The position numbers and the translations under genes were made by a program. Positions 13,807 through 29,855 of a stretch of 38,204 bases of DNA are shown here, piece by piece (the stretch's first letter is position 1; each line of letters opens with the position of its first letter). This DNA is from a virus. Below the pieces are notes generated by a model. It was not told the DNA's origin and searched no databases. It saw nothing but the letters and a program-made list of their open reading frames with translations. The stretch spans positions 1-38,204 of IMG/VR virus record IMGVR_UViG_3300021361_000004. One strand, given 5' to 3'.

Positions 13807-15452
13807 TGCCAGTTGCGCAGAAGCCCCCAATTCCCCCAGTTGCCAAGACGCACACTATTCCGGCCCCCATTGGGGGCCTGAATGCTAGGGATCCATATTC
13901 TGCAATGCCTGAGACTGACGCGGTCTCGTTGGTAAACTGGATTCCAGATACTGGCGGTATTAAGAGCCGTAAAGGATATAGTGAGTGGGCGATTAACTTT
14001 CCAGGTGGGAAGTCAGTAAACACGATTTTTGGATACATTCCTCCAGGAACTACGTACCCTGGAGGATCATTTCTTACTGATCCAACTACGATGCCCGGTA
14101 AGCTCTTTGCAGCTACGGACACAGCCATCTACGACATTACTGGTACGACGAATGCTCCCACGTCTAGCTACGCGCTGTCTGGGGCGTCTAATGCTGGATG
14201 GATGTCTACCACTCAGTTTACGAATTCTGGCGGGGCATATTCCGTTTGTTGCTCAGAGACAGATGGATATCTGTACTACGACGGCACGACCTGGAATAAG
14301 CCTACAATGGGCACAGGTACTGGACAGATTGCAGGTATTGATCCTGGAAAGTTTGTTTTTGGACTTTCCTTTAAGAATCGGCTATGGTTTGTTGAACGTA
14401 ACAGTACGCGTGCATGGTATCTAGCCCCGAGTTCTATCACGGGCACAGCTAATCTCTTTGACTTTGGCGCGTATTTTGAACATGGTGGTAATCTAGAGTA
14501 CCTCGCTCGTTGGACTATTGACGCTGGTGAAGGTATTGATGACTACTTCGTCGCAGTGGGATCTAATGGCGACGTGCTGGTGTATCAGGGGGCTGATCCA
14601 TCTAGTATTTCCACCTGGGCACTGGTAGGAACGTGGTATATCGGGCAGGTGCCCGTGGGGCGCCGTGCCTTTGTTCAGTATGGCGGTGACCTTATTCTCA
14701 TTAGCGGACAGGGCGTCTATCCCATCAGTTATGTTACTCGTGGCGGTGCGGACTTCTTACAGGCATCTGCAAAGGAGTACAGCAGTAAGATTCGGCCTTT
14801 GATTGGTAAGGATCTTTCTGCTAGCTTTACCACACGAGGATGGCAAGCGCTTGTCCACCCCACTGAGCGTACGATGCTGATTAATGTGCCCAATTATGGA
14901 GCGCAGAATAATCGACAGTATGCGATGTCCACCACACAGAATAGCTGGTGTATCTTCCAGAATATTCCCATCTACAGCATCGGTACGACTGCTGGCTTCG
15001 CATTTGCTGGTACAGTGGATGGGCGAGTATTGCTACTGTTCAATGGCTATCAGGACGATGTTCCTTACGCTGGCGGTACTGGTGCAGCTATTTACGGACA
15101 GATAATTCCCGCTTTTTCGTATCTATCTAGCCCTGCGCAGCAGAAGTTTGTCTCTCTTGTTCGACCGTGCTTCTTAGCTGCCGCACCTCCAAATGTTACT
15201 GCTGGAGTTAACACTAACTTCGACATTAATAACACAGGTGGAACCCCAGCGTACACAGCCCCCACAACTTCAACATGGGATAGCGCGCACTGGGATAGCG
15301 CAGTTTGGTCTGGGGCTGTGAGTGTATATGCCACTTGGATTGGCGCGGGAGCCATTGGCTTTTCTGCTTCATTGGCGATGACTACGGCCACAGTTGCGGA
15401 TACGACACTCACTGCAATTGACTACGTCTACACCCCGGGAGGGGTTTTGTGA
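13803..15452 (+). CDS. Tail nozzle protein, tail tubular protein B-like, 549 aa
   Basis: The start overlaps the adaptor stop; ATG 13803 and ATG 13806 are both possible. The N-terminus (APIGGLNARDPYSAMP, DAVSLVNWIPDTGGIKSRKG) is characteristic of nozzle proteins that close the short tail and form the exit channel in podovirus-type tails. The remainder is a beta-propeller-like series of strands with repeated aromatic/glycine motifs (KFVFGLSFKNRLWFVERN, YFVAVGSNGDVLVYQG, GGDLILISGQGVYPIS). The length is in the lower part of the range for this family. It probably also binds the tail fibre. Confidence 0.78.
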   Translation: MMPVAQKPPIPPVAKTHTIPAPIGGLNARDPYSAMPETDAVSLVNWIPDTGGIKSRKGYSEWAINFPGGKSVNTIFGYIPPGTTYPGGSFLTDPTTMPGKLFAATDTAIYDITGTTNAPTSSYALSGASNAGWMSTTQFTNSGGAYSVCCSETDGYLYYDGTTWNKPTMGTGTGQIAGIDPGKFVFGLSFKNRLWFVERNSTRAWYLAPSSITGTANLFDFGAYFEHGGNLEYLARWTIDAGEGIDDYFVAVGSNGDVLVYQGADPSSISTWALVGTWYIGQVPVGRRAFVQYGGDLILISGQGVYPISYVTRGGADFLQASAKEYSSKIRPLIGKDLSASFTTRGWQALVHPTERTMLINVPNYGAQNNRQYAMSTTQNSWCIFQNIPIYSIGTTAGFAFAGTVDGRVLLLFNGYQDDVPYAGGTGAAIYGQIIPAFSYLSSPAQQKFVSLVRPCFLAAAPPNVTAGVNTNFDINNTGGTPAYTAPTTSTWDSAHWDSAVWSGAVSVYATWIGAGAIGFSASLAMTTATVADTTLTAIDYVYTPGGVL

Positions 15453-15949
15453 TCGTCACCCAGCCTAGAGAAAAGCTTTGGGCTTGGATGAATTCTCGAA
15501 TGGGCATCGGTTGGACTGATGATTTCCGTGCAATTGGCCTAGTAAAAGATGGTTGCCTTGTGGCCTGTGTTGGCTATAATGGCGCTGTTGGACGAACGTG
15601 CATGATGCACAGTGCCATCGACGATCCTTCAGCGATTAGTCGAACATTCGTCAAGGCGATCTTCGAATACCCATTCCAGCAGCTCAACTTGCTGTGGCTC
15701 TTTGCCCCAGTTGATAGTTCAAATGAGCGAGCGATTAAGCTGGATCTTCATGTGGGGTTTAAGGAGATCAATCGCTTTAAGGGCGCAGCGCTAGACGGTA
15801 GTGATGTAGTCTACCTCGCGATGAGCCGAGACGAATGCAGGTGGATTAATGGGAAGCAAAAGCGCCCCCGCAGCGCCCGACTACACAGCAGCAGCTCAGA
15901 CTCAAGCTGCTGCGAGTCAGCAGAATACGCAGCAGCAGACGACTGCTAA
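15449..15949 (+). CDS. GNAT-like N-acetyltransferase fold protein, 166 aa
   Basis: The start is GTG 15449, after GGGAGGGGTTTT, overlapping the nozzle stop by four bases. Residues 1 to about 130 follow the order of a GNAT fold: a first helix, strands (FRAIGLVKDGCLVACVGYNG), a helix, the core strand LLWLFAPVDSSNERAIKL and a final VGFKEINRFKGAALDG strand pair. Many podovirus-like genomes carry such an acetyltransferase-like gene between nozzle and internal virion genes. The pyrophosphate loop (R/Q-x-x-G-x-A/G) is poorly kept, so activity is uncertain. The last 34 residues overlap the next gene by 101 bases in another frame, are low in complexity and are probably incidental. Confidence 0.65.
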   Translation: MIVTQPREKLWAWMNSRMGIGWTDDFRAIGLVKDGCLVACVGYNGAVGRTCMMHSAIDDPSAISRTFVKAIFEYPFQQLNLLWLFAPVDSSNERAIKLDLHVGFKEINRFKGAALDGSDVVYLAMSRDECRWINGKQKRPRSARLHSSSSDSSCCESAEYAAADDC

Positions 15950-25688: not shown

Positions 25689-26282
25689 CTAGAAGTACTC
25701 TTCAGTGCTGCCTAGCGGCGTGCCTGGGTGCAGGCACGGGGCCGGGCCGTTGCGGCTCTCCAAAAACGTCTCTTCACGCTTGCAAATCTTGCATTTACAG
25801 ACAGCCGCACGCTGGCCGTGGCTGATAACCCAGCCCTCCACCGTGTATCCCGCAAGATCGGCAATCTTACGGAACATTTCGCTTTCTAGGCTGTGGTTCT
25901 GGTCATTGGAGAGGTTTGGCAGTGAACCTCCAGCGTCTCCTGTGTAGACGGCGGAGAACTGCGCCTGCTTATCCAATGCTTCCCCGTACTGCTTACCAGC
26001 GGTGTCTCTTACTGTATCACAGTGCTCACGTATAAGAAGTAGGTAGCCAATGAGGTCATCAATGTCATCCTTAATGTCCCCCTTGTTTTCGGCAAGGGCC
26101 TTAAAGATGTCGTAGTTAAGTTGTTTGCAGATGTTTTCTATGCGATCCCACTTGCGCGACATAACCATGAAGGCTCCGATACCCTCCCGCTTACGCCAGC
26201 TAGACCCGTAGTCTGCATCTTTCTTTTCTACAGTCTTGACTATATTCATTGCCAAGACTCGCATGTTGGTGAAGTTAGTCAC
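25689..26282 (-). CDS. Nmad1-like (DUF1599) nucleotide-modification-associated protein with zinc-ribbon tail, 197 aa
   Basis: Residues about 15-90 carry the pattern of the DUF1599/Nmad1 domain, a MazG-like all-alpha fold: KKDADYGSSW (D22, D24), MSRKWDRIENI (K44, R47), then a DDIDDLIGYLLLI metal-binding-type helix (D72, D73, D75, D76). The family occurs beside genes that modify pyrimidines in phage DNA and probably hydrolyses or binds nucleotides. A linker leads to C162, C164, C167 and C183 plus H185, a zinc-ribbon-like cluster. GTG 26282 is chosen because CGGAGGACAGAAC precedes it; ATG 26264 is an alternative. It overlaps the hydroxymethylase-like gene by eight bases and is last in the leftward operon. 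Confidence 0.72.
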   Translation of the reverse strand: MTNFTNMRVLAMNIVKTVEKKDADYGSSWRKREGIGAFMVMSRKWDRIENICKQLNYDIFKALAENKGDIKDDIDDLIGYLLLIREHCDTVRDTAGKQYGEALDKQAQFSAVYTGDAGGSLPNLSNDQNHSLESEMFRKIADLAGYTVEGWVISHGQRAAVCKCKICKREETFLESRNGPAPCLHPGTPLGSTEEYF

Positions 26283-27255
26283 GTTCTGTCCTCCGGTTAA
26301 CCCAGCCTTGGAAGGAATGCTTCCAGTCTGATTCTTCAATGTGTTCGAAACTAAAAGGCTGAGCTTTCTTTCGTAGAATATATGTCTTGAGAATAGGCAC
26401 AGCAGTGCGGCGCATAAAAGCAGTCTTGACGACGCTATCATGCCCACGCACTACATCATGACAGTCTGCAATAAAGTCACCAATTGTCTCCTTTCCTTGC
26501 AGTAGTGGGACTGGCTTGGCATTCGTGTATAGCTCGTAATCATCCTCTGCGTGTGTGGGCAGAGCATGTAGGTCCACCAGCTTGCCGGGGCCAAAATCCA
26601 AGTACATATGGAAGTTATTGGATAGCTGATAGTACGTTCCTACTCGCACCCCAAGCGTCGTAGCCATTAGCTCCTGCAGCATGGAGAAGTGTACAGCATT
26701 CGCCCCATATGCTCCCCACATAATGTCATTACTGCGGCAGCAGACGGTCATATTTAGCTCACCATCCTGCACTTCAAAGTAGATGTGTGTGTTGCAGGGA
26801 ACGTCTTTGTAGTTGGCAGCAAAGTCAGTTCTAGCATCCCACATCTGCACCACGACTCGACGATTGTTGGGTTTACGCAGCTCCTCCAAAGCTAGATGAA
26901 TCTGGTTCATATCAAAGTGCCTAAACCAGCGATGTCCGTAGGCTCCATGCTGAGTACCATCGGACTCAGCAAACTGGCTGAAACTACTGTTGAACTGCAA
27001 CAGCCACTCCACCCGGTTTGCACCGGAAAGCATCCAGATAGTTTCTGCAAGGTGGAAGACGTGATTAGCGTCCCGCCACGCGGGGGATACCAGCCTCTCG
27101 CGGGGATGCAGGTACTCTGTTATAACCGGCCCTGGAGCGCGAACTACTCGCCCATTGCGACTATCACTAATCACGCCCTTAGTCTTTAGGTGCCATAGGG
27201 CATCGTTAAGAGCGTGGTTGACATTTGTGGCCGTGATAATGCGGGCTTTACTCAT
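26275..27255 (-). CDS. Thymidylate synthase / dNMP hydroxymethylase family protein, 326 aa
   Basis: This enzyme family transfers a one-carbon unit from methylene-tetrahydrofolate to C5 of dUMP or dCMP. Visible family features are SRNGRVVR near the start, AYGHRW, the paired arginines NRRVVVQMW, the catalytic Cys154 in DVPCNTHIYF, CRSND (R174, D177), N186 in GANAVHF, and the H216-x-Y218 pair in NNFHMYLD. Asn at 186 aligns with the Asn that selects uracil in thymidylate synthase; T4 dCMP hydroxymethylase has Asp there. The context of modification genes makes 5-hydroxymethyl-dUMP formation more likely than plain dTMP synthesis. ATG 27255 follows AGGAG; the longer open frame upstream overlaps the MazG gene and is rejected. 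Confidence 0.82.
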   Translation of the reverse strand: MSKARIITATNVNHALNDALWHLKTKGVISDSRNGRVVRAPGPVITEYLHPRERLVSPAWRDANHVFHLAETIWMLSGANRVEWLLQFNSSFSQFAESDGTQHGAYGHRWFRHFDMNQIHLALEELRKPNNRRVVVQMWDARTDFAANYKDVPCNTHIYFEVQDGELNMTVCCRSNDIMWGAYGANAVHFSMLQELMATTLGVRVGTYYQLSNNFHMYLDFGPGKLVDLHALPTHAEDDYELYTNAKPVPLLQGKETIGDFIADCHDVVRGHDSVVKTAFMRRTAVPILKTYILRKKAQPFSFEHIEESDWKHSFQGWVNRRTERD

Positions 27256-27679
27256 GGTTAAGAATCTCCTCCAACAGCTTCTTAATCTTAGGCTCGGGCT
27301 TCCAGTAGTTTGGACCTTTCTGCACCTTTCCATTGACAATAATGGGCTGTCCGTCTTCTCCCAGTTTGGAGAAGTTGCTGTCCATAATCGTGTGCAGCAC
27401 CATCTCCATGGGCAGGCCAGCGCGGGCACCTTCGCTAAGGCAGTAGACAATCATATCTCCAAGCCAATCCGCTAGGTCCGTAAGCAGTTCCACCTCAGGT
27501 GTGTCCTTATTGACGAACTTGCTAAGAATATCGTCGGCTTCCTTTACCTCTTCCGAGATAATTTCTCGAAACCGCACCAGCCGTTCCACGCCCTCGAAAA
27601 TGGGGCGATTTGGTGTTGGCAGTCCATACATGCGATTGAACTGCTGGATACGTGAGAAAATGTCTGGCAAATGCTTCAT
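27248..27679 (-). CDS. MazG-like nucleotide pyrophosphohydrolase, 143 aa
   Basis: This is an all-alpha NTP pyrophosphohydrolase of the MazG/PRA-PH group. The metal site is the two helix motifs EEVKEADD (E43, E44, E47, D50) and LTDLADWLGDMIVYC (D68, D71, D75). The C-terminal part (MDSNFSKLGEDGQPI, then KGPNYWKPEP) is typical of the phage and bacterial members that I know. It converts dNTPs to dNMPs and pyrophosphate. Beside a hydroxymethylase-like gene it may destroy the canonical dNTP or supply dNMP substrate, as analogous enzymes do in phages with modified bases. The start overlaps its upstream neighbour in ATGA and has AGGA in front. Confidence 0.85.
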   Translation of the reverse strand: MKHLPDIFSRIQQFNRMYGLPTPNRPIFEGVERLVRFREIISEEVKEADDILSKFVNKDTPEVELLTDLADWLGDMIVYCLSEGARAGLPMEMVLHTIMDSNFSKLGEDGQPIIVNGKVQKGPNYWKPEPKIKKLLEEILNHE

Positions 27680-27867
27680 TCTAGTCCTTTTATTGAAAAG
27701 TTGTTTTCCATGGCAAATTGGTGGAGTTGGCTCTCATCTACGAACTGCTTAAATTCGAACTGGTCCTCCGACCCGTAGAGGTAGACGCATGTGTTAAGCG
27801 CACCATGCGCCTTACCCACTATCTTTATCTCACCCCGCATTGTAGCGGTTTCTAGCCCGTCCGCCAT
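27676..27867 (-). CDS. Small protein, 63 aa
   Basis: ATG 27867 follows GAGGGTTAAGA and overlaps the end of the upstream gene by 38 bases. A second ATG at 27840 overlaps that stop region but lacks a binding site. The protein reads as a small alpha/beta unit (EIKIVGKAHGALNTCVYLYG, then EFKQFVDESQLHQFAMENNF). The C-terminal helix ends in SIKGLE. It has no known motif. Because it is locked between the pyrophosphorylase-family gene and MazG by overlaps, it is probably co-translated with the modification genes; whether it takes part is unknown. Confidence 0.65.
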   Translation of the reverse strand: MADGLETATMRGEIKIVGKAHGALNTCVYLYGSEDQFEFKQFVDESQLHQFAMENNFSIKGLE

Positions 27868-28663
27868 TCTTAACCCTCATATATTTGGAGAATTCGCACA
27901 TGCAATTTTGAAAGTCTTGCATGTGCATATCGTGTAGATACTGCGGCAGTAGTGGCTTGGTGGCTGCCCAGCAGTCGCCGAGGGCCACTGTAAAGCTACA
28001 AGGGCTTACAGTAGCGCCGTAGAACGCTTGTAGACCCCGCAAACTACCCGGCCCAGGGGCGGCCCAGGTGTGCCAGTCCGGCGCGGCCTGGAGCGGGTGC
28101 CCCTCGGTATTCTTTAGGTCCGCAATAATCTGCCCAGCCATGAAAGTGCTGACTCCATTAAGTTGACAGAGTACTTGGCAGGCAGAGACTAGAGTACCAC
28201 TAAAGTGCGCATGCTGCAAAAATGCCTCCCCCCGCGCAGGCTTTAACACGCGGTCAATGATATAGTCCACCTTATCCATACTGATGCCATTGGTGCTGAC
28301 CAAATAGGCATTACCGAAGATAGGGCCTTCTTTACGAAGATTCTTAAGCTCTTTCTTGATGCTTTCAAGACAAGTGTTATCTTCTATCGCAATTACGTCT
28401 TTGAGGTGGTCAAGCGTGGGGATGTTATTGATTAGACGGGCAAGCAGAATTTGCCATACTTCGTGATACTGTGGACGCCAATTCTCAGCAAGCCATTTCG
28501 TTACCTTATCATCTTCACGCCGCACGTTGCAGTAGCGGACATTACCCATCACTGGGTCGTCATGCCAACCATACTTCCAAGTTGGCATTGCGAATGCTAT
28601 TCTTTTGCGAAGGCGAATATTCTCACGTTCGATGATCCAGTAGGAAAGTTCTTGTGTTCTCAT
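27830..28663 (-). CDS. Alpha-glutamyl/putrescinyl-thymine pyrophosphorylase / 5-hmdU-kinase helical-domain family protein, 277 aa
   Basis: The protein has the conserved features of the helical, DNA-glycosylase-like family described with hypermodified thymines (Pfam HMUDK_hel; aGPT-PPlase of Iyer and co-workers): NVRYCNVRREDDKVTKWLA at 41-59, GNAYLVSTNG at 117-126, NGVSTFMAGQIIADLK at 169-184, DWHTW at 196-200, GPGSLRG at 204-210, and a late QNCMCEFSKY at 252-261. Family members act on activated 5-hydroxymethyl pyrimidines in DNA and replace the leaving group with another moiety; this is known from prediction and from thymine-modifying phages. No P-loop kinase domain is fused here. ATG 28663 follows GGGAG and overlaps the membrane-protein stop. 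Confidence 0.78.
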   Translation of the reverse strand: MRTQELSYWIIERENIRLRKRIAFAMPTWKYGWHDDPVMGNVRYCNVRREDDKVTKWLAENWRPQYHEVWQILLARLINNIPTLDHLKDVIAIEDNTCLESIKKELKNLRKEGPIFGNAYLVSTNGISMDKVDYIIDRVLKPARGEAFLQHAHFSGTLVSACQVLCQLNGVSTFMAGQIIADLKNTEGHPLQAAPDWHTWAAPGPGSLRGLQAFYGATVSPCSFTVALGDCWAATKPLLPQYLHDMHMQDFQNCMCEFSKYMRVKNGGRARNRYNAG

Positions 28664-29082
28664 TTCGTATCTCCCATGCGCTTAGCTTCACATGCGGACT
28701 TTAGCCATTCCACGCAGTTACGATCGAATACTGTGCGGCTATTCATAAGGGATGCTAGGGGACTACTGGGTCGGTAGGTAGCCTTTACGTCAAGCGCAAT
28801 GCGAAATAGCTCCGACTTAACTTGTTCCCACGCTTGTTCATCTAGCATGAAACTAGCTGTATCATAATACACAGGTTTAATCACTGGCAGCTTATCTCGC
28901 TCCAACTTGTTAGCTTCCCGCAGCTTACCCCACTCCACAGCCTTACTTACCGAGAAACGAATAACTGCGTAAACGCTACCAATGATGAAGGTCTTGTAGG
29001 CCCAGAATAGAATTATCACCCACAGGGCGATTTGCGGCAATCCTGCAATAGCCTTGATGACATCTTGAAGTTCTTCCATCAT
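28660..29082 (-). CDS. Membrane protein within the modification operon, 140 aa
   Basis: ATG 29082 overlaps the glycosyltransferase stop (ATGA) with GGGGTG upstream; a longer frame from 29115 is possible but lies within the glycosyltransferase gene. Residues about 12-45 are hydrophobic (AGLPQIALWVIILFWAYKTF, then IIGSVYAVI), enough for one long or two short transmembrane helices. The rest is soluble and charged (KAVEWGKLREANKLERDKLP, SPLASLMNSRTVFDRN). I know no family. It stands between two DNA-modification-type genes, so it may anchor or regulate them at the membrane, or it may only share the transcript. Confidence 0.68.
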   Translation of the reverse strand: MMEELQDVIKAIAGLPQIALWVIILFWAYKTFIIGSVYAVIRFSVSKAVEWGKLREANKLERDKLPVIKPVYYDTASFMLDEQAWEQVKSELFRIALDVKATYRPSSPLASLMNSRTVFDRNCVEWLKSACEAKRMGDTK

Positions 29083-29855
29083 TTTGCGCACCCCGCTTGG
29101 TAAGCCTTCTTCCATTGGATAAGCACGTCAGTGCGCACTCCTCCCCCAAAGGATCCTTTAGTCTCCTTCTTTACTACTTTGACGAAGCCGGGGTGGAAGC
29201 GTGCGAGCTTTTCAGCGTTGATAGCTTGCAACTCGCGGGTTCGGAAACCTGAGCAGCCCCCGCTAACTCCGCTGCCAGCTTGGTTATTCGCCCACCAGTT
29301 GAGAATGCAGTTACGCATCCCCAGCCGTAGAAGTCGCAGGGCAACATCAAAGTCTTCCATCACTTCCATACGGTCAAAGGCAATGCATTCACGCATGAGA
29401 ATGTCTCGCCTGTACCCCAGCACACGCATGATACGGGTATTGTGAATAGTAGAGTCAGTGCAGCGATTGGCTCCTTCCCGTGCGGCGATGCCCACATGGG
29501 GGTGCCACTCGAGCTCACTCTGAATATCCTCAATTAGGCGCTCCATATCCCCCAATTCAAGATCGCGCAGCTTGGTGGGGTCATCCATCCTACGCCGGTA
29601 GAACGTTAGGTCATCGTCAAGCATCAGCAGCTTGGTGTGCGTTCCTGCATTCTGCACAATCCAGTCCCGCGTGGGGGCAATGGTGTTGATGTGGTCAGGT
29701 AGAATTAGAATCCTGGTGGTGGGACTCTCATACTTGGCGTAGTGCTTAAACTCTAGAAACTGCACCACGAGCATGTGGGGGATGCGAGCGGCCTCTAGCT
29801 GCTCATGTGTGGGCTGGCTTTTCCAGCGTCCACAAGTTGGGATTACAATGTCCAT
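29079..29855 (-). CDS. TET-associated-type glycosyltransferase (TAGT), GT-A fold, 258 aa
   Basis: The sequence follows the TAGT family that Iyer and co-workers linked to modification of hydroxymethylated bases in phage DNA. It has the N-terminal strand MDIVIPTCGRWKSQ, LPDHINTIAPTRDWIVQNAG, the metal/nucleotide-sugar motif LMLDDDLTF (D80-D82), GIAAREGANR, VMEDFDVALRLLRLG with E167/D168/D170 as candidate catalytic acids, SGGCSGFRTRE at 198-208, and the end RTDVLIQWKKAY. It should transfer a sugar from a nucleotide-sugar donor to a hydroxymethyl group on DNA. The start is ATG 29855, behind GGAGAGAGC. It heads the modification sub-operon, just after a stem-loop. No TET/JBP oxygenase is encoded in the window. 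Confidence 0.8.
   Translation of the reverse strand: MDIVIPTCGRWKSQPTHEQLEAARIPHMLVVQFLEFKHYAKYESPTTRILILPDHINTIAPTRDWIVQNAGTHTKLLMLDDDLTFYRRRMDDPTKLRDLELGDMERLIEDIQSELEWHPHVGIAAREGANRCTDSTIHNTRIMRVLGYRRDILMRECIAFDRMEVMEDFDVALRLLRLGMRNCILNWWANNQAGSGVSGGCSGFRTRELQAINAEKLARFHPGFVKVVKKETKGSFGGGVRTDVLIQWKKAYQAGCAK

Follow-up and report, generated by a model that had tools for sequence, protein, structure and literature searches.

A phage gene cassette predicted to place glycosylated 5-hydroxymethyluracil in DNA

We analysed a seven-gene cassette in the IMG/VR virus record IMGVR_UViG_3300021361_000004. The window (the whole stretch of 38,204 nucleotides) is the entire linear IMG/VR contig, and the cassette lies at 25689-29855 on its minus strand. 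The cassette encodes a TAGT-family glycosyltransferase, an HMUDK_hel protein and a thymidylate synthase (TS) homologue. It probably yields glycosylated 5-hydroxymethyluracil (hmU) that replaces thymine, or part of it, in the phage DNA. It appears to be a variant of thymine hypermodification with a glycosyltransferase in the place of the kinase, and this pathway is well supported by comparison with related loci. The cassette is real, conserved and widespread, and it is common in environmental phages.

Core genes of the cassette

The original prediction had assigned the TAGT, HMUDK_hel and TS families from the letters alone. Profile searches with PF20691, PF18723 and PF00303 were all above cut-off, and PHROGs agree.

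The TS homologue matched PF00303 with 73 bits (cut-off 24.3) and phrog_5131 with an E value of 4e-96. Its start is preceded by the ribosome-binding site GGAGGAG. Aligned with the E. coli thymidylate synthase, whose numbering is used here, it keeps Cys146, Arg166, Asp169, Asn177, His207 and Tyr209. It carries the substitution H147N and has lost Trp80. Asn147 was present in 162/162 aligned synthase sequences and Asn177 in all 161 that cover that column, and Trp80 was lost throughout. The synthases of phages M6, P26218 and LuckyBarnes have the same residue signature. Positions 177 and 147 best discriminate the enzymes of modified DNA from those of unmodified DNA; Asn177 corresponds to dUMP and Asp177 to dCMP, and dCMP enzymes mostly have Asp (PMC8670742). 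M6 is thought to build its modified base from the precursor 5-hydroxymethyldeoxyuridine (5hmdU) (PMC6449724). Because Asn177, H147N and the loss of Trp80 occur together as in this 5hmdU phage, dUMP hydroxymethylase is the best call for the homologue. Its nearest PDB relative was a CMP 5-hydroxymethylase (E=6e-22), and the best thymidylate synthase reached 2e-12. We infer a hydroxymethyl rather than a methyl product. The retention of Asn177 in every sequence covering the column indicates uracil, as a thymine replacement, and not cytosine as the likely target.

The TAGT protein matched PF20691 with 77 bits (cut-off 27.5; E=2e-21; profile positions 1-198 of 205). It also matched phrog_842 (E=3e-46), which is annotated as a beta-glucosyl-HMC-alpha-glucosyltransferase. 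Its AlphaFold2 model has a pLDDT of 94.8 and a GT-A fold. The best PDB matches of the model were UDP-sugar GalNAc transferases (E about 5e-6); a PDB search with the sequence gave no match. The Asp-rich metal motif, DDD, is invariant in 47 TAGT sequences.

The HMUDK_hel protein matched PF18723 with 102 bits (cut-off 25; E=4e-29; profile positions 6-275 of 281) and phrog_2396 with an E value of 3e-39. The original prediction had called it an aGPT-PPlase/HMUDK-helical protein. The match bears out the second half of that name; aGPT-PPlase is older usage, now HMUDK_hel. Its AlphaFold2 model is all-helical and confident (pLDDT 94.2). The best PDB fold matches were PUGT, OGG1 and MutY (E 0.16 to 1.4), and the first nine were all of PUGT or OGG1/MutY types, each of them weak. 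PUGT comes from phage PaMx11, where it is the 5-PmdU glycinyltransferase; OGG1 and MutY are base-flipping glycosylases. A PDB sequence search with HMUDK_hel gave no match. The invariant residues are R13, R49, D52, R76, N79, K131, F174, D182, D196, G204-P205-G206, G210, C256, E257 and K260. They are identical whether the partner is TAGT or a kinase, and no column is fixed differently between these classes. No fusion of HMUDK_hel with TAGT or a kinase was found among the loci examined.

The window had no match to PF18748 or PF18747 (5-hmdU kinase), PF18724 (ADDT) or PF12851 (TET/JBP). A P-loop scan of the window retrieved the helicase, the terminase and one motif in an open reading frame without a family, and nothing else. 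The original prediction, which saw neither a P-loop kinase nor a TET/JBP oxygenase, thus agrees with the profile searches. PF18748 gave matches in M6, Sonora and P26218 and in all five kinase-slot records that were searched. It gave none in the more than 30 records searched in which TAGT adjoins HMUDK_hel, many of them near 40 kb. ADDT was present in M6, Sonora and P26218. Its absence from the window makes aminoalkyl products unlikely. PF12851 was present in 0/49 records (the window and 48 others), nearly all of which have TS. It was present in all three TAGT contigs without TS (L138-L140), which served as the positive control for this search. TAGT therefore appears to pair with either a DNA oxygenase or a nucleotide-level hydroxymethylase.

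Partner exchange among relatives

In IMG/VR, 498 HMUDK_hel relatives matched, and the best 80 were kept. The count covered 65 dereplicated HMUDK_hel loci, 63 of them with covered flanks. The gene adjoining HMUDK_hel was TAGT in 49/63, a P-loop 5-hmdU kinase in 6/63, neither in 8/63 and both in 0/63; these proportions are not a census, because the sets of loci were collected by similarity to the window. A synthase was present in all 62 HMUDK_hel loci with its place covered. The gene order of the window is kept in L001, L002 and dozens more contigs, so the arrangement is not due to chance.

TAGT, HMUDK_hel and TS recur together in IMG/VR contigs and in the cultured Brevibacterium phage LuckyBarnes. 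LuckyBarnes (L011, 6442-10457) encodes a synthase, two tandem TAGTs and an HMUDK_hel not annotated in the record. Its two TAGTs possibly place two sugars on hmU. A tandem HMUDK_hel pair adjoins TAGT in a 98.7-kb contig (L137:5246-6900).

An IQ-TREE tree of 113 HMUDK_hel proteins requires at least seven changes between kinase and TAGT, on the maximum-likelihood tree and on 200/200 sampled bootstrap trees. The number is about six without the doubtful L165. That locus (L165:4080-7639) came from the TAGT search and contains HMUDK_hel, TAGT and a weak kinase-like gene (HMUD2 E=0.011). It is the only apparent exception to the exclusivity of kinase and TAGT.

Other proteins occupy the partner slot in a few loci. 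L004 has a divergent TAGT there, just under the cut-off at 1e-5. The slot proteins L084:797-1942 and L092:5730-7001 are GT-B-like, with weak group-1 glycosyltransferase matches below cut-off, and L005:7022-7999 is GT-B-like with no Pfam match. A family of about 300 amino acids, also with no Pfam match, occupies the slot in L035:6112-7008, L037:6088-7008 and L038:4591-5502. Its PATRFYEMLSAGLP motif recalls GT-B glycosyltransferases, and it is possibly an undescribed DNA glycosyltransferase family. The slot proteins of L035 and L092 had no PDB match. L061 has no slot protein beside HMUDK_hel. A radical SAM/SPASM protein (L004:6119-7093) adjoins the divergent TAGT and HMUDK_hel of L004 and has a homologue in L005. 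It might make a further change to the base or the sugar.

Proposed pathway and competing explanations

The predicted pathway starts at the nucleotide level. The TS homologue would convert dUMP to 5-hydroxymethyl-dUMP, as its residues and its homology to the M6 enzyme suggest. The MazG-like enzyme would cut the competing dTTP pool, a role that an HD 5'-deoxynucleotidase probably fills in many relatives. The phage PolA would then incorporate hmdUTP. With a host sugar nucleotide as donor, TAGT would glycosylate the hydroxymethyl group once it is in DNA, and the result would be a nucleotide resembling base J. HMUDK_hel would recognise or flip hmU for the local decorating enzyme: TAGT in the window, and in other phages either a P-loop kinase or a different glycosyltransferase. 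Hydroxymethylation of the nucleotide followed by glycosylation in DNA was the route first suggested for this cassette, and it agrees with the residues of the synthase and with the conservation of the TAGT-HMUDK_hel-TS neighbourhood.

We propose, as a hypothesis, that HMUDK_hel is a partner that presents or recognises the hmU base in DNA. The swapping of its partners, its unchanged invariant residues and its weak fold likeness to PUGT and DNA glycosylases suggest this role. More broadly, the dUMP hydroxymethylase and HMUDK_hel, as an hmU-recognition subunit, may form the constant core of a modular DNA-armour chassis with an exchanged decorator, which would give many environmental phages base-J-like DNA. 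We hold this broader claim tentatively, as somewhat short of probable. A pyrophosphorylase reading of HMUDK_hel was rejected. The window has no kinase, so no phosphorylated base is expected as a substrate, and the aGPT-PPlase name has been superseded in Pfam.

The pathway is predicted here from gene content, gene order, conservation, residue signatures and partner exclusivity, which are what the analysis shows. Several points weigh against this account. No single fold match of HMUDK_hel reaches significance (best E=0.16, TM score 0.44), and a profile comparison of HMUDK_hel with ADDT found no similarity. MW202897 encodes TAGT, TS and an HD enzyme without HMUDK_hel, and P26218 encodes a kinase and TS without it, so neither TAGT nor the kinase strictly requires HMUDK_hel. 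In T6-like phages the likely substrate of TAGT is glucosylated 5-hydroxymethylcytosine (hmC) (PMC13390438), and the family assignment therefore does not fix the acceptor. The contig is possibly incomplete, and the phage could encode a kinase or ADDT beyond its ends.

HMUDK_hel might instead be a catalyst that acts in every pathway on an intermediate common to them all (hmdU nucleotides or hmU in DNA), with TAGT or the kinase working after or beside it. Its invariant charged residues in all partner classes (R13, R49, D52, R76, N79, K131, D182, D196, E257 and K260) and its weak likeness to the transferase PUGT are consistent with this. The phages with TAGT and TS or kinase and TS that lack HMUDK_hel argue against its catalysing a step that all the pathways need, and we know of no reaction that fits between hmU and both products. 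We regard a catalytic HMUDK_hel as doubtful. It is quite unlikely that the synthase is an ordinary thymidylate synthase and that the cassette leaves DNA unmodified, with another substrate for TAGT. In favour of this, TS genes are frequent in phages, and hydroxymethylases and synthases are hard to separate by sequence (PMC5977210). This explanation is disfavoured by the H147N substitution and Trp80 loss held in common with M6, by the hydroxymethylase as closest PDB relative and by the near-invariable coupling with HMUDK_hel. It is also disfavoured by TAGT, which is a DNA glycosyltransferase family (PMC13390438).

The modification could go beyond glycosylation if a kinase or an amino-acid transferase came from the host or from DNA outside the contig, which would yield an aminoalkyl product like that of M6. 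M6-like phages do share TS, HMUDK_hel and pool-control genes with the window. The lack of matches to PF18748, PF18747 and PF18724 in the window and the lack of the kinase in the records with TAGT beside HMUDK_hel make this very unlikely. Least likely of the alternatives is a modified cytosine, made by dCMP hydroxymethylation and glycosylation as in T-even phages. The annotation of phrog_842 points that way, and T6-like phages carry a TAGT thought to add a second glucose to hmC (PMC13390438). We rejected hmC because the window and every relative covering the column have Asn177, whereas dCMP enzymes mostly have Asp (PMC8670742). The original prediction had allowed for a loss of either dT or dC; the uracil/thymine half of it stands, and the cytosine half is very unlikely.

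Glycosylation of hmU remains the preferred reading, and it can be compared with known systems. The M6/YuA-type thymidine hypermodification phages include Pseudomonas phage M6, which makes 5-(2-aminoethyl)dU, as well as Pam3, Sonora and Rhizobium RHph_I65. They have in common with this type of cassette a dUMP-hydroxymethylase-type synthase, HMUDK_hel beside a decorating enzyme, an HD-type pool enzyme and PolA nearby. They encode the 5-hmdU P-loop kinase and ADDT (aGPT-Pplase2 in Pam3), with further enzymes in some, whereas the window encodes neither and has TAGT beside HMUDK_hel instead. The window resembles the TET/JBP-TAGT systems and kinetoplastid base J (JBP and JGT) in that a hydroxymethyl-pyrimidine in DNA is glycosylated. 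Base J itself is hmU that carries glucose. In those systems an oxygenase, found also in L138-L140, creates the hydroxymethyl group on DNA, and in the predicted pathway it would arise at the nucleotide level. T4/T6 hmC glucosylation likewise combines a synthase-family hydroxymethylase with a DNA glycosyltransferase. It differs in dCMP specificity, with Asp at position 177 of the hydroxymethylase, and no HMUDK_hel was seen. Bacillus phage SP-15 contains glucosylated dihydroxypentyluracil, a sugar on a hypermodified uracil (PMC5977210). It differs in its dihydroxypentyl side chain with phosphoglucuronate and in its separate 10-gene cluster.

The original prediction had described an island. The module does not stand alone, being common in environmental phages. 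Related genes had already been found together in HTVC023P-type pelagiphages, where TS, aG/PT-PPlase1, a 5'-deoxynucleotidase and a glucosyltransferase are co-located near the DNA polymerase; the function of the cluster was left open (PMC9599517, 2022). The gene types correspond, and, likened by description, the two are likely the same kind of module. Our analysis adds the kinase/TAGT partner swap, the residue signature, the TET/synthase dichotomy and the conservation of HMUDK_hel. A 2019 paper described glucosylated 5hmdU as not yet reported from phages (PMC6449724). If the proposed pathway is correct, glycosylated hmU occurs in many environmental phages and in the cultured LuckyBarnes, by a route unlike base J synthesis. 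HMUDK_hel, which has been filed as a kinase part or a pyrophosphorylase, would be recast as a partner common to unrelated decorating enzymes. The sugar-adding enzyme is swapped for a kinase beside the same partner protein in some phages, which suggests a modular armour kit for viral DNA. Such systems might yield new tools to label hmU in DNA, and they might explain restriction resistance in new ways.

Accessory genes and the rest of the window

All seven open reading frames of the cassette were open and were confirmed in a check of the window (Table 1). They had been described as seven overlapping genes. The first six in transcription order do overlap, by 4 to 38 bases, and the Nmad1-like gene is set off by 10 bases.

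Table 1. Genes of the cassette in transcription order, with refined starts
Feature	Coordinates	Strand	Details
TAGT-family DNA glycosyltransferase, predicted hmU glycosyltransferase	29079..29855	-	258 aa; PF20691, phrog_842
Small membrane protein, single transmembrane segment	28660..29115	-	151 aa; no family match
HMUDK_hel protein (aGPT-Pplase1)	27830..28663	-	277 aa; PF18723, phrog_2396
63-aa protein	27676..27867	-	homologues in near relatives only
MazG-like nucleotide pyrophosphohydrolase, predicted dNTP-pool cleanser	27248..27679	-	143 aa; phrog_671
Thymidylate synthase homologue, predicted dUMP 5-hydroxymethylase	26275..27255	-	326 aa; PF00303, phrog_5131
Nmad1-like (DUF1599-like) protein	25689..26264	-	191 aa; phrog_1485 E=3e-5

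The MazG-like label comes from the match to phrog_671 (nucleotide pyrophosphohydrolase; E=1.7e-17); there was no Pfam match. A MazG-like gene lies near TS in 10 loci and an HD (YfbR-like) 5'-deoxynucleotidase in 72, and no locus has both. Both enzymes may lower competing dTTP or dTMP.

The Nmad1-like label is sub-threshold. The protein scored 13.2 bits against the DUF1599 profile (PF07659), below the cut-off of 25 (E=0.004 for one genome). It has a homologue (E=1.7e-12) in Pseudanabaena phage Pam3, which is annotated "nucleotide modification" and lies in the same neighbourhood. Homologues were found in 18 loci, mostly near TS, Pam3 included.

The membrane protein had been counted among the genes linked to modified pyrimidines. 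It had no family match in Pfam or PHROGs, and neither L001 nor any of the other loci has a homologue; it is probably an accessory protein outside the pathway. The 63-aa protein has homologues in L001, L002, L016-L018, L020, L023, L025, L027, L042 and L044. They sit between HMUDK_hel and MazG/TS. One could speculate that this protein inhibits host base-excision enzymes.

Upstream of the cassette lie the gene of an SNF2-type helicase and a small gene that is lysine-rich. The window contains a full phage set, with primase, terminase, portal, tail, amidase, polymerase and ligase genes. A Megablast search of its right half against phage records gave zero matches. An Acyl-CoA N-acyltransferase family gene (phrog_4470, E=1e-30) is present at 15449-15949, surrounded by structural genes.

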